64,000 nt of DNA. Source: a virus. Every line of letters starts with the position of its first letter. Positions within the stretch are counted from its first letter, which is position 1. Where the stretch lies: IMG/VR virus record IMGVR_UViG_3300030102_007788, positions 97,149-161,148 of that record, one strand, 5' to 3'. This document shows positions 8,044 to 27,646 of the stretch, piece by piece. The notes beneath the pieces are model-generated. The model had not been told where the DNA came from. It did not search any database and worked only from the letters and a program-made list of their open reading frames with translations. Made by a program: the position numbers and the translations under genes.

Positions 8044-8125
8044 CGTAAGTCATTGACTATCAAGCACTTACGTCGGCGGCGGGGGGGCGCCGCAGCCCTA
8101 AGTCACTGGCTATCAACGACTTAGG
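8044..8125. repeat. 82-bp triple-palindrome element, copy 1
   Basis: Two near-palindromic 29-mers (CGTAAGTC...ACTTACG and CCTAAGTC...GACTTAGG) flank a 24-bp GC core with seven G and the pair GCGGCG/CGCCGC. It lies between the AT-rich block and the first accessory cassette. The outer bases differ between the two 29-mers but change together (CG..CG versus CC..GG), so pairing is kept. Confidence 0.9.
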
Positions 8126-10022: not shown

Positions 10023-10096
10023 CGCGGGGTAGCCAAGTGGTAAGGCAGGTCTCTGCAAAAGACCCATCGTCGGTTCGATCCCGATCCTCGCGTCCA
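10023..10096 (+). tRNA. tRNA-Cys (anticodon GCA)
   Basis: All arms fold: acceptor CGCGGGG/CCTCGCG (one G-T), D arm GCC/GGC, anticodon stem GGTCT/AGACC with loop CTGCAAA giving GCA, 4-nt variable loop, T arm GTCGG/CCGAT with loop TTCGATC. The discriminator base is T, the identity element for cysteinyl-tRNA synthetase, and CCA is encoded. It is the only tRNA I find in the window and ends 14 bases before repeat copy 2. Confidence 0.95.
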
Positions 10097-10109: not shown

Positions 10110-10191
10110 CGTAAGTCATTGACTATCAACGACTTAGGCGCGCAGCGCCCCCCCTCCGCCGGCGTAACCCATTGATAATCAGTCACTTAGG
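10110..10191. repeat. 82-bp triple-palindrome element, copy 2 (inverted)
   Basis: Same 29+24+29 layout and same 82-bp length, but the core runs the other way (seven C on the plus strand). The right-hand 29-mer has lost part of its palindrome (CGTAACCC). It sits between tRNA-Cys and the reverse DUF932 gene. Confidence 0.9.
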
Positions 10192-10265: not shown

Positions 10266-11201
10266 TTAGTTCGCGGCCAGATCGACCACGGTGGCAGTCT
10301 TCTGCTTTTCAGGAACCTTGGAGGTCAGCTTCTTAAAGAAGGCTGGCTCGCGGGTTGCCTTATGCAGATTGCCAAGCACGTTCCGGTTAGAGCGTGATGA
10401 CAGCTCAAACCGATGTTCCTGAACCTCGTGGGTGAGGTGTTGCGTGACCGCGTTGTACAGGTTGTACATATTGCGATCATGTGCCACGGCGTCATGGCCC
10501 GACTCGATCCGAAAAGACTTGTTAGTCCAGATCGGCGCGATGGAATCCTTGAGGGACTCAGACAGAACTTTTTTAATGACAAGATTGTCAAGAATCAGTT
10601 CGCCTTGCTCTTTGGACAGTTCAAACTCCCTCATTTTTTTGAAGACGTTCACCGACTCGCGGTATTTGTCCATGCACTCATTCAGCGAATCCGTGATTGA
10701 GTCGAAACTCAAACGGGTGCTGTGACGTTGGCTCAGGCTGGTATCGTTAACCATTGTGACCATGCCATTGCTGCAGATCTTCCGAAGAAGACCAAGACTC
10801 CAACTCAAACCACAACTCCGGTCAAAAGAGTTGTTGAGGGTCAGGCGCATCGAAACGATGTCACCGACGGCTACCTCCTCCTGCTGGCCGGGGAAGTCGT
10901 AAACCCCATAAAACCGCGCCCCATCACGGGTAGCTAGTTTTTTGGATTTGAATTCACCGAGGTTGCTACCACGAAGGGCTTCCTCGACCTTTTCAACAAC
11001 GACTCCGTTGTTGACGATTTCGTACTGCTTAGTGCTAGTACCCAGACAGACTCCATTGTCTGTGCGAAAGTTCCCGAAGATGGGGGACTTTCCGACCACT
11101 ACCGGTCTCTGCTTGTGATCATACAAGGGGCGTTGTTCCACCTCGTAATCATACTCGCGAGAGTGTAGCGTCTCTTTTGGTATGGATTGTTTTCTGCTCA
11201 T
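10266..11201 (-). CDS. DUF932 domain protein, 311 aa
   Basis: The sequence has the features of DUF932 (phage/plasmid-like protein family): GKSPIFGNFRTDNGVCLG, STKQYEIVNN, a central GARFYGVYDFPG, MRLTLNNSFDRSCGL and LRKICSNGMV, then a long helical C-terminus. The family is widespread in phages and plasmids; its biochemical role is not established. It forms a single-gene cassette between repeat copies 2 and 3 with its own promoter and terminator. Confidence 0.8.
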   Translation of the reverse strand: MSRKQSIPKETLHSREYDYEVEQRPLYDHKQRPVVVGKSPIFGNFRTDNGVCLGTSTKQYEIVNNGVVVEKVEEALRGSNLGEFKSKKLATRDGARFYGVYDFPGQQEEVAVGDIVSMRLTLNNSFDRSCGLSWSLGLLRKICSNGMVTMVNDTSLSQRHSTRLSFDSITDSLNECMDKYRESVNVFKKMREFELSKEQGELILDNLVIKKVLSESLKDSIAPIWTNKSFRIESGHDAVAHDRNMYNLYNAVTQHLTHEVQEHRFELSSRSNRNVLGNLHKATREPAFFKKLTSKVPEKQKTATVVDLAAN

Positions 11202-11232
11202 AACATTTTTAGTGCTTCCTCAGCACGCATTT

Positions 11233-11261
11233 ATATTCTCATAATCTGGCCACCGGGTCAA
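11233..11261 (-). promoter_or_regulatory. Promoter of the DUF932 gene
   Basis: On the minus strand: TTGACC, 17-bp gap, extended TGA-GAATAT. Unlike its relatives it has a 31-nt gap to the start codon. The leader contains a GTGCT/AGCAC hairpin (11212-11226) that shows GAGGA in its loop. Confidence 0.65.
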
Positions 11262-11331
11262 CCCTTTTTTTGTAATTATTTTTCTTTTTTTTATGCTTGA
11301 CTTTTCTGAACGAAACTCCGACAAGGTCCAT

Positions 11332-11413
11332 CCTAAGTCATTGGTAATCAAGGACTTAGGGCCGCGGCGGGGGGGCGCCGCCGGCGTAACCCACTGACTA
11401 TCAATAACTTACG
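11332..11413. repeat. 82-bp triple-palindrome element, copy 3
   Basis: Left 29-mer CCTAAGTC...GGACTTAGG, core with GGCGGGGGGGCGCC, right 29-mer CGTAACCC...ACTTACG. It abuts a minus-strand terminator. Confidence 0.9.
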
Positions 11414-11446
11414 ACAAAAAAAACCCACGGCGTTGGCCGTGGGTTA
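11414..11446 (-). terminator. Rho-independent terminator
   Basis: On the minus strand CCCACGGC/GCCGTGGG with loop CAAC is followed by eight T. It ends the transcript carrying gene 11580-11822 and its structured tail. Confidence 0.85.
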
Positions 11447-11453
11447 GTGTTAT

Positions 11454-11584
11454 GAAGAGACGTATAGATGTCTCAGGAGAGTGAAGCCCTCGCCTTGGTA
11501 AAACCCGCTAGGGTAGAAAGTATAAAACCCCTAACGGTAAAACCCAAGGCAAGGGCGACTTGAAGGAAAGGAGGAACCTTCAAG
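11454..11584 (-). ncRNA. Structured RNA in the 3' tail of gene 11580-11822
   Basis: Three hairpins lie between the stop codon and the terminator. The central one has a 13-bp stem (11486-11498 with 11544-11556), an internal loop carrying GGGTTTTACC on both sides and an inner 7-bp stem (11507-11513 with 11529-11535). In both stems the imperfect pair is C-A on the plus strand but G-U on the minus strand, so the RNA is expected on the minus strand, matching gene and terminator. The hairpin at 11559-11584 has a perfect 8-bp stem and loop TTCCTCCTTT, equal to the anti-Shine-Dalgarno CCUCCUU of 16S rRNA. Function unknown. Confidence 0.6.
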
Positions 11585-11822
11585 CACCTTTAGGAAGTAA
11601 CCAGCTCCCTAAAATTCTCAGAAAATTTGGCTTTGTGAGATAGCGGTCAACTTCTTTTTGAGTAGCCAACCGAAGGTGTTCGGCGGGAATCGCTTTCTGA
11701 TTCTTTCCGTGTCTTTCGGTGACAACTCTTGATTTGCTGAAGTTGTTTGAGATTACGCGCTCAACTTTTTTTGTCTTTGTATTGTAGTACAACGAACCGT
11801 TTCTTATCTTGGTAAGTTTCAT
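11580..11822 (-). CDS. Small basic hypothetical protein, 80 aa
   Basis: The start (MKLTKIRNGSLYYNTKTK) is set by the promoter at 11833-11861, 10 nt upstream. A longer in-frame reading to 11897 would run through that promoter. The protein is basic with a hydrophobic end (FLRILGSWLLPKGA). Its stop codon lies in the first hairpin of the structured 3' tail. Function unknown. Confidence 0.7.
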   Translation of the reverse strand: MKLTKIRNGSLYYNTKTKKVERVISNNFSKSRVVTERHGKNQKAIPAEHLRLATQKEVDRYLTKPNFLRILGSWLLPKGA

Positions 11823-11832
11823 AACTGAGAAA

Positions 11833-11861
11833 AGTATGCCCCACACAGGGAGCATTGTCAA
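11833..11861 (-). promoter_or_regulatory. Sigma70-type promoter for gene 11580-11822
   Basis: Minus strand TTGACA, 17-bp gap, CATACT, then 10 nt to ATG (CAGTTATGA). Divergent from the promoter at 11886-11914. Confidence 0.7.
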
Positions 11862-11885
11862 CATGAAAAAAAACAAAAAAAGGGG

Positions 11886-11914
11886 TTGACCATTCACAAA
11901 AAGTATGATTAAAT
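11886..11914 (+). promoter_or_regulatory. Sigma70-type promoter for gene 11925-12344
   Basis: TTGACC, 17-bp gap, extended TGA-TTAAAT, then 10 nt ending CGTT before ATGAGG. Confidence 0.7.
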
Positions 11915-11924
11915 TATCTCCGTT

Positions 11925-12344
11925 ATGAGGAAGTACATTCCATGGGAAAAGGCAGAGAGCTTCGCTCCGGATCGCGTCAAGGTGTATCGCAACCTCACTT
12001 ACAAGTGTTGGACTATATGCGATGCGAAGGATGGCAAGCTATATTGTCATGCGGATAGTGTTGACTTGCGTGATTGCAAGTTTCGGGTGCAGCCAGCAGG
12101 CCGCGCAAGAGTCTTGAAGGAGCGGCAGAAGAACGTCCACGCTTACGTGGTCGGAAAGTTCCACGATGTGAACTTCGAGCAGGCGCACTATATGCCTCGC
12201 GGCTACAAATTCGCGCAGGCTTTCTACAATCCTTATAGGGTTGAAACGTTTGTGAATTATCACAATGGCACGCCGCTATATGAAGCGGCACGGGTTGTCT
12301 GCAAAAAGGCAGCAGACGGGGCAATGAACATTTATTACGCTTGA
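11925..12344 (+). CDS. Hypothetical protein, 139 aa
   Basis: Starts MRKYIPWEKAESFAPDRVKV. It is rich in aromatic and basic residues with several single Cys; the codon use is more GC-rich than that of late genes, suggesting a separate origin. No family recognised. The next promoter begins inside its last codons (12341). Confidence 0.75.
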   Translation: MRKYIPWEKAESFAPDRVKVYRNLTYKCWTICDAKDGKLYCHADSVDLRDCKFRVQPAGRARVLKERQKNVHAYVVGKFHDVNFEQAHYMPRGYKFAQAFYNPYRVETFVNYHNGTPLYEAARVVCKKAADGAMNIYYA

Positions 12345-13602: not shown

Positions 13603-13684
13603 CCTAAGTCACTGGTAATCAGTCACTTACGACTCCGGAGGGGGGGCGCCGCAGCCGTAAGTCATTGGTATTCAACGACTTAAG
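13603..13684. repeat. 82-bp triple-palindrome element, copy 4
   Basis: Left 29-mer CCTAAGTC...CACTTACG, core GGAGGGGGGGCGCCG, right 29-mer CGTAAGTC...GACTTAAG. It separates forward from reverse genes. Confidence 0.9.
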
Positions 13685-16467: not shown

Positions 16468-16549
16468 CGTAAGTCATTGATTACCAGTGGTTTACGCCTG
16501 CGGCGGGGGGGCGCCGAGGCCGTAAGTCATTGATACTCAGTCACTTACG
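16468..16549. repeat. 82-bp triple-palindrome element, copy 5
   Basis: Left 29-mer CGTAAGTC...GTTTACG, core GCGGCGGGGGGGCGCCG, right 29-mer CGTAAGTC...CACTTACG. It is in a 406-base gene-free interval that also holds a terminator. Confidence 0.9.
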
Positions 16550-18164: not shown

Positions 18165-18246
18165 CGTAAGTCACTGATAGTCAACGACTTACGCCGCCGG
18201 CGGGGGGGCGCCGCGCTCCTAAGTGACTGATACTCAAGGACTTACG
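18165..18246. repeat. 82-bp triple-palindrome element, copy 6
   Basis: Left 29-mer CGTAAGTC...CGACTTACG, core CCGGCGGGGGGGCGCCG, right 29-mer CCTAAGTG...GACTTACG. Confidence 0.9.
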
Positions 18247-19246: not shown

Positions 19247-19328
19247 CGTAAGTCACTGATAGTCAATGGGTTATGGGCGCGGGAGGGGGGCGCCGCCGGC
19301 GTAAGTCCTTGGTAGTCAACGACTTACG
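19247..19328. repeat. 82-bp triple-palindrome element, copy 7
   Basis: Left 29-mer CGTAAGTC...GGGTTATG (decayed), core GCGGGAGGGGGGCGCCGCC with six G, right 29-mer CGTAAGTC...CGACTTACG. The length is again exactly 82 bp. Confidence 0.9.
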
Positions 19329-26053: not shown

Positions 26054-27646
26054 ATGGGGGAACTGCATACCATAGCAAGCAATGGTAATTTAAATGTTAT
26101 AAAAAAAGCGCTTTCGAAAAATAAAGACGCATTTCTTGTCGTAGATGAAGAGTTAGGATGGTCTCCTTTACATTACGCCGCTAGCAAAAGCAAAACTAAA
26201 ATTGTAGAAGCTATTTTAGAGGCTGGCGTTGACCCTAATATTCCAAGTGTTCCTCGCACTAAATATAAACAAAATGCTTGGAACTTAGCTATGGAGGAAG
26301 ACAAAGAGAATGTTGACCCAATCGTTTTCCCACTGGATGTTGCAGATGGCCCTTCTCGCACAACAGTATTCAAAACGATTTTAATGTACGGTGGAATTTT
26401 TTATGGAGATGAATTAACTCTTCATCAAGCTGTACAGTTAGACGATATGGAAGAAGTCGAGGGATTACTACAAGACGAAACTCTTAAAATTAATGCTAGA
26501 GATAATAGAGGATGGATGGCGATTCATTACGCTGTAGATCTTGCTAATATGGAAATGTTAAAAATATTAATTGCAAATAAAGCTGCTATAAACGGTTCCA
26601 CTTATGCAAAAGATGCTATAATTCATTTTAATCCTTGGGAAATTGCTAACATTAAAAATGATGAAGTAATGCTTAAATTTTTAGAATCTAAAGGCGCTAA
26701 ACGTCACCCGGGTATACTGCATGATCAAAGGGCAACGTTAAAAAATAAAACTAAATTATACGACAGGTCAAAATCTGACTTAACTATGTCAGCAGTTAGA
26801 GAAAAATTAAAAGAAAAAGAAGCCTCGTTTAAAAAAGTTCCTAAAGCTCCTGAAGGATTTTTGGGCAAGCTATTTGAAAATAAACACGATAAAGAAAAAA
26901 GATTAGCTTTAGAAGCCGCTGCCGAAAAAGAGCGGGAAAAAGAAGAAGAAGCCAAAAGAATAAAGCAACAAGAGCAAGAAGAAGAAAGAAGAAAACAGCA
27001 AGTTATAAAATGGTCTGGAGGCGTAGATCCTTTTAAATTAAAGGGTGAGTCATTAACTTATGACGAACAGTGTGAGGCTCATATTTATTTTATGGATATC
27101 GTAGGGTATTCGCAGAAAAGCACAAGTGAACAAAAACAAGTTTCAGATGAGTTGGTTTCAATTGTAAAAAGCACCGAGAGCTTTCAGAAGGCAGATAAAA
27201 AAGGTAAGTTAGTTATTCTGCCTACAGGTGACGGTATGGCTTTAGTTTTCTTCGATTCCGTTCATACAGCTTTTAAATGCGCTATAGATGTCGGCATCAG
27301 GACATTTAAGCATCCTCAAATAGGATTACGTCACGGTGTTTATACCGGACCCGTAGTTCCTGTTAAAGACATAAATGATAACCCTAACGTTTCTGGTACA
27401 GGTATAAATATGGCTCAACGCTGCATGGATGCTGGAGACAGTGATCATATCTTGATCTCAGATCATGTGTATCAATACGTTAGAGAATCTATACCTGCAT
27501 TAAAATTTGAAGATTGGGGACCTGTAGTCGTCAAACACGGAGCTACAGTACATATGTGGACAGCTTTTGGCGTTAATTGTGGGAGACAAGAATTTCCTCA
27601 TTGGAGAGGGATTAAGAGATTAGAGTATAAGGAAGATGAAGAATAA
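26054..27646 (+). CDS. Ankyrin-repeat class III nucleotidyl cyclase, 530 aa
   Basis: Residues about 1-215 contain ankyrin repeats (ELGWSPLHYAASKSKTKIVE; RGWMAIHYAVDLANMEMLKI). About 215-320 is a charged coiled coil. About 335-510 is a class III adenylyl/guanylyl cyclase domain: FMDIVGYS with metal-binding Asp348, LPTGDGMALVFF with second metal Asp393, GLRHGVYTGPVV, and SGTGINMAQRCMDA with the Asn452/Arg456 transition-state pair. The Lys expected just before the second Asp in typical adenylyl cyclases is not present (LPTGD), so the base used (A, G, C or U) cannot be told. The enzyme should make a 3',5'-cyclic nucleotide. It heads an operon with a ferredoxin. Confidence 0.9.
   Translation: MGELHTIASNGNLNVIKKALSKNKDAFLVVDEELGWSPLHYAASKSKTKIVEAILEAGVDPNIPSVPRTKYKQNAWNLAMEEDKENVDPIVFPLDVADGPSRTTVFKTILMYGGIFYGDELTLHQAVQLDDMEEVEGLLQDETLKINARDNRGWMAIHYAVDLANMEMLKILIANKAAINGSTYAKDAIIHFNPWEIANIKNDEVMLKFLESKGAKRHPGILHDQRATLKNKTKLYDRSKSDLTMSAVREKLKEKEASFKKVPKAPEGFLGKLFENKHDKEKRLALEAAAEKEREKEEEAKRIKQQEQEEERRKQQVIKWSGGVDPFKLKGESLTYDEQCEAHIYFMDIVGYSQKSTSEQKQVSDELVSIVKSTESFQKADKKGKLVILPTGDGMALVFFDSVHTAFKCAIDVGIRTFKHPQIGLRHGVYTGPVVPVKDINDNPNVSGTGINMAQRCMDAGDSDHILISDHVYQYVRESIPALKFEDWGPVVVKHGATVHMWTAFGVNCGRQEFPHWRGIKRLEYKEDEE

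Follow-up and report, generated by a model that had tools for sequence, protein, structure and literature searches.

Downstream of a small basic protein gene, a large uncultivated phage encodes a structured RNA on its minus strand that almost certainly exists as a family in uncultivated large phages, and that can tentatively be read as the conserved structured 3′ untranslated region (UTR) of a leaderless early mRNA, accumulating as a trans-acting small RNA (sRNA) with a UCUCCU seed. The locus lies in a 64,000-nucleotide stretch of DNA (the window; G000:C1:97149-161148 of a 170,406-base IMG/VR record), whose minus strand bears, in order, a promoter, the ATG of an 80-residue gene within a few bases, the RNA hairpins and a terminator. 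The promoter (11833-11861, minus strand) is of the sigma-70 type (TTGACA, 17 nt, CATACT; 10/12 consensus matches), and its layout recurs in three relatives, L213, L214 and L212 (TTGACA or TTGACT, 17, TATACT, then GTTATG). Because the promoter adjoins the ATG, the mRNA of the small-protein gene (11580-11822, minus strand; homologues 79-84 aa) probably starts a few bases 5′ of the ATG and would thus be leaderless. Starts of this leaderless type, that at 11822 included, share TTGACN, about 17 nt, a -10-like box and an ATG about 10 nt on, often as GTTATG. No open reading frame (ORF) of at least 40 codons was found over the structured region, and, judging by the sequence, the small-protein gene and the RNA are probably co-transcribed.

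The RNA begins with hairpin 1 (11559-11584, minus strand), in which the stop codon of the gene falls within the 8-bp stem and the 10-nt loop reads UUCCUCCUUU (11576-11567). The central stem (11486-11556, minus strand), found by folding and by covariation, consists of two helices separated by a symmetric internal loop: an outer helix of 13 bp (11556-11544 with 11498-11486), a 6x6 loop (GUUUUA/GUUUUA, 11543-11538 and 11504-11499), an inner helix of 9 bp (11537-11529 with 11513-11505) and a U-rich apical loop of 15 nt (11528-11514). The sequence GGGUUUUACC occurs twice in this stem, and a third copy, GGGUUUUA, extends into the apical loop. The conserved motif UCUCCUGAG (11472-11480, minus strand), in which UCUCCU is unpaired in the window fold and forms the candidate seed, sits between the central stem and hairpin 3 (11457-11474, minus strand; GAGAC, 8-nt loop, GUCUC). 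An intrinsic terminator (11422-11445, minus strand), a 10-bp stem followed by a U tract, gives the RNA its 3′ end.

The first-pass annotation, made from the letters of the window, had proposed a minus-strand structured RNA of three hairpins between gene 11580-11822 and its terminator, and hairpins and terminator are indeed found there. The minus strand of 11414-11600 folds with a minimum free energy of -82.2 vs -45.1 (sd 4.1) in 200 shuffles (z -9.05); with the terminator left out, the minus strand reaches z -8.7 and the plus strand z -5.4. Among the window's non-overlapping 140-nt tiles, the one at 11481 on the minus strand is the most stable. The annotation had also assigned the strand from G-U pairs in the stems. 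The two G-U pairs of the window are weak evidence when taken alone, but the relatives raise the count to eight G-U and no A-C, and because the stem departures are of this one kind, selection can be placed on the minus-strand RNA. The same count argues against a DNA-level inverted repeat or recombination site, which, together with antitermination for the downstream DUF932 gene, forms a very improbable explanation. Two 25-bp palindromes that flank a GC-rich spacer (11334-11411) do lie just past the terminator, as such an explanation would have it; against antitermination, the DUF932 gene is preceded, on the far side of the palindromes, by a promoter-like sequence and a leader of its own.

For the TerL protein, at least 158 relatives are found among viral contigs, and the accessory region is variable. 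The 144-kb record G001, the same record as L213, contains a stretch that matches the RNA at the DNA level (75%, E 1e-6), upstream of a DUF932 homologue (54% identity). Profile searches from two-sequence alignments added L211, L212 and L214 (records G046 and G047 hold the L214 sequence, and L215 is identical to L214 over the stretch compared); single-sequence searches of viral contigs with the small protein and with the DUF932 and gp82-like proteins gave no matches. The order of the window (promoter, small protein, RNA, terminator, palindrome pair, DUF932) is kept in L213 and L214, and the terminator is at the same position in L213, L214 and L212. L212 retains the small protein and, of the RNA, only the last hairpin and the terminator, without hairpin 1 and the central stem; the full RNA is therefore dispensable. 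L211 has the DUF932 gene without the small protein and the RNA.

Covariation in relatives, which the first-pass annotation had named as its own test, is present among the three distinct full-length sequences that make up the conservation set (window, L213 and L214). A covariance model built from the window sequence alone (R3) matches L213 (E 1.7e-6) and L214 (E 1.5e-5) in 204 kb. In the covariance-model alignment of the three sequences, which is itself fitted to the structure, 98.9% of the structure cells are paired and 14 pairs are changed on both sides, a result reached by 0/500 shuffles, and sliding that alignment by 1-3 columns lowers the pairing to 36-60%. A separate hand alignment gives 72/72 cells paired, nine double-change pairs (0/5000 shuffles) and the eight G-U vs no A-C departures mentioned above, and RNAalifold returns the same helices. 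Scanning 35 related or unrelated records with R3 matched only G001, a scan that may miss members because its loose first look overlooked G046 and G047. A pattern search for the GGTTTTACC pair returned many unrelated loci, and none of those inspected has this structure; the exact hairpin 1 loop pattern has no match in viral contigs. No relatives of the small protein or of the DUF932 protein were found in genome contigs, and no small-protein, DUF932 or capsid-like matches among 50,697 phage records; Vibrio plasmids gave weak DUF932 matches only. At the Rfam 15 gathering thresholds, the window, L208, L214 and L212 yield only tRNA matches, and the best sub-threshold match (E 0.046) covers only the terminator region.

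Within the conserved structure, some parts vary and others do not. The hairpin 1 stem is kept among the relatives with the full RNA, but its loop is not; hairpin 3 keeps its position and differs in sequence and register. A repeat on both sides of the central internal loop had been pointed out earlier; it is present in the window but is particular to this phage, since across the relatives the internal loop keeps its 3′ UUUUA side alone and drifts freely on the 5′ side. The U-rich apical loop is likewise conserved. The longest invariant block of the alignment is UCUCCUGAG, identical in 9/9 columns of the three sequences; it occurs as a single copy in 170 kb, and L212 has UCUCUUGAG at the corresponding place. 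These patterns bear on the doubtful view that the RNA is a plain mRNA end, in which hairpins only guard against exonucleases or aid termination and have no specific partner. Such an end would suit the intrinsic terminator that closes the RNA, the L212 version with its one hairpin and terminator, and the free drift of the hairpin 1 loop and of the 5′ internal loop. However, a protective stem needs no conserved two-part architecture with a near-symmetric internal loop, and protection does not need a 9-nt invariant motif.

The small protein itself suggests another role for the RNA. It has 80 aa and a pI of 10.7 (10-10.7 in the family), and the window protein is 50-57% identical to its homologues. 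No Pfam family is above threshold in the four homologues (best DUF3786, E 0.015). The AlphaFold model of the four homologues (mean pLDDT 81) shows a five-stranded barrel with a C-terminal helix, for which a fold search returns solved Tudor, KOW and SH3-like domains (best Z 7.6); the protein is thus predicted to be an SH3-like (Tudor/KOW-like) barrel, a common fold that is compatible with RNA binding, although a Z below 8 does not demonstrate it. The RNA may be a cis-acting 3′ UTR element without trans action, on which the small basic protein or a host RNA-binding protein would bind the U-rich loops of the central stem, internal as well as apical, and control the stability or translation of its own mRNA. 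This reading is nearly as likely as that of a trans-acting sRNA. Protein and RNA share one putative transcript and occur together in the window, L213 and L214; a basic protein with a barrel of the predicted kind, common in nucleic-acid binders, is at hand; the U-rich apical loop and the internal-loop UUUUA side are the conserved loops; and, because hairpin 1 contains the stop codon, translation would couple to folding. Conversely, the fold is so common that its score proves no function, L212 has the protein without the central stem, and the strict conservation of UCUCCUGAG, which lies outside the central stem, is left unexplained by a cis element.

The trans-acting sRNA with a UCUCCU seed remains, tentatively, the best explanation. 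From the computed structure, strand, conservation, gene order, motif conservation and complementarity, we infer promoter use, processing, stability, trans action and targets as follows. Transcription from the host-type promoter at the ATG to the intrinsic terminator would give a transcript of about 400 nt, whose 3′ part, from hairpin 1 to the terminator U tract, would build up as an sRNA of roughly 165 nt that acts in trans. The central stem would serve as a protein platform or stabiliser, and the UCUCCU seed would pair with AGGAGA Shine-Dalgarno (SD) cores; possible targets are host mRNAs and late genes of the phage itself, which would be restrained early. The RNA has the anatomy of an sRNA (an unpaired stretch flanked by stable hairpins and followed by a U-tailed terminator), and its location between a stop codon and an intrinsic terminator with a U tail is a feature of sRNAs derived from 3′ UTRs. 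This anatomy favours the sRNA reading, as does the basic protein on the same transcript.

The motif supplies the candidate partner. UCUCCU is complementary to AGGAGA, the SD core of the capsid-like gene 62492, whose leader is AAGGAGAUU and whose homologues in G001 and G045 retain AAGGAGA. The product of 62492 has no family match; from its place and length, our guess is that it is the major capsid protein. AGGAGA is in SD position at 5/278 ORFs, 62492 and 38793 among them. The sRNA reading is favoured because UCUCCUGAG is invariant, open in the window and in L213 (the predicted unpaired probability of UCUCCU is 0.82-0.97 and 0.91-1.0, respectively) and complementary to the 62492 SD. Conversely, it is weakened because AGGAGA is a generic SD core, to which any CU-rich motif of this kind would be expected to be complementary, because the motif is predicted to be mostly paired in L214, and because L212 lacks the full RNA and L211 has DUF932 without the small protein or the RNA. 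The complementarity of UCUCCU and AGGAGA is thus a lead and not a proof. An extended version, which we consider unlikely, has the barrel protein and the 3′ UTR RNA form a ribonucleoprotein that would block AGGAGA SDs early, in host genes and in capsid-type late genes of the phage, while leaderless early mRNAs would escape.

The first-pass annotation had placed the pairing site elsewhere, in the hairpin 1 loop, as a decoy that captures SD sequences of host mRNAs and spares leaderless phage genes; the conserved and mostly unpaired UCUCCUGAG, which it missed, is the better candidate. What it had seen in the window is there: a perfect 8-bp hairpin displays the core of the 16S rRNA 3′ end, with eight nucleotides (CCUCCUUU) in common with the usual 16S end, which is assumed here for the host. 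Among 112 perfect hairpins of at least 8 bp in 170 kb on both strands, hairpin 1 alone shares at least 6 nt with the 16S end, and a random genomic 10-mer shares at least 8 nt with a probability of about 3e-4, or about 3% over the 112-hairpin set. This match gives the decoy some support, as do accessory genes that look leaderless (2496, 6156, 8234, 8533, 11925 and 15585). Many promoter-proximal accessory genes fit the earlier description of leaderless genes, but 23386, 27826 and 28057 carry strong SDs. However, the UUCCUCCUUU loop is absent from every relative (L213 and L214 have another loop, L212 none), and among the late genes of the phage itself, 38793, 40261 and 62492 are preceded by strong SDs; because these and some accessory genes are SD-led, a general SD trap would strike the phage too. 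An SD decoy would, moreover, have to outnumber all SD-led mRNAs. As a function of the RNA family the decoy is rejected, and even for the window it is hardly credible; the UUCCUCCUUU loop may have a private role in this one phage. Cuckoo RNAs display anti-SD-like CCUCCUCCC loops, whereas here a CCUCC-type (CCUCCUCCC-type) loop is found in the window phage only and is not conserved.

The surroundings of the locus hold further elements. A 78-bp element occurs seven times (8046-8123, 10112-10189, 11334-11411, 13605-13682, 16470-16547, 18167-18244 and 19249-19326), confined to the 8-20 kb region and mostly between accessory genes. Each is built from two palindromes of 25 bp (TAAGTCNTTGATNATCAATGACTTA-like) at a distance of exactly 53 bp; the 28-bp spacer is GC-rich and mostly includes six or seven consecutive G or C. 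Similar palindrome elements (spacing 48-53) are present in L211, L212, L213 and L214. They are perhaps cassette boundaries or recombination sites. One palindrome pair adjoins a tRNA-Cys(GCA) gene (10023-10096), and L212, L213 and L214 have a tRNA near the same module. The DUF932 gene (10266-11201) has a leader hairpin (11201-11230, minus strand) with a GAGGA or GAGGG loop and compensatory changes in its stem (GUGCU/AGCAC in the window, GUUCU/AGAAC in L213 and L214, GUCCU/AGGAC in L212), and from its sequence it looks like a conserved translational operator. A kissing contact between the hairpin 1 loop (UUCCUC) and GAGGAA of this leader hairpin, possible by eye in the window, is not possible in the relatives and was rejected. 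Further along, 26054-27646 on the plus strand encodes an ankyrin-repeat protein, unusual for a phage, that weakly matches the guanylate cyclase catalytic domain (E 2.9e-4, short of the Pfam cut-off). A second start-proximal motif, GTGTAATAT or GTGTA(A/T)A-like, lies about 10-15 nt before the ATG of 22953, 25292, 26054, 28979, 29995 and 36916, and may represent a phage late promoter.

Several known systems resemble the locus in part. In type III toxin-antitoxin systems, the toxin gene is preceded by an RNA made of tandem repeats. The phage locus is like these systems (ToxI and relatives) in that an RNA lies beside a small basic protein gene, but its RNA is downstream of the gene, and no tandem array was found at 11200-11960. 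By layout, the nearest known arrangement is CcaF1-CcsR1-4 (the cuckoo RNAs of the CIN1 locus) of Rhodobacter and other alphaproteobacteria, in which the gene of a small RNA-binding protein shares a transcript with structured sRNAs, which RNase E excises, and with a Rho-independent terminator (PMC10253847). The phage locus likewise joins a small basic protein gene and an RNA before an intrinsic terminator, an order found with its terminator in four phages and suggestive of co-transcription. However, the analogy fails for the DUF1127 domain, which the phage protein lacks, and for the conserved loop; the phage locus also has one RNA and not four copies, lies in a phage genome and has no Rfam match. 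Host or phage mRNAs are the targets of phage-encoded small RNAs such as PreS of lambda and VpdS of VP882 (PMC12197685), and the same is proposed for the RNA described here. No relation to them is seen, and unlike them this RNA lies in the 3′ UTR of a putatively leaderless gene of a large uncultivated phage.

The locus thus adds a covariation-supported RNA family that is absent from Rfam, in a lineage without a near relative in 50,697 phage records. If UCUCCU works on SD cores, phages with leaderless early genes might restrain SD-led translation by means of an RNA, which is testable. If the ribonucleoprotein reading were true, the RNA and the barrel protein would constitute a timing switch from leaderless early translation to SD-led late translation.
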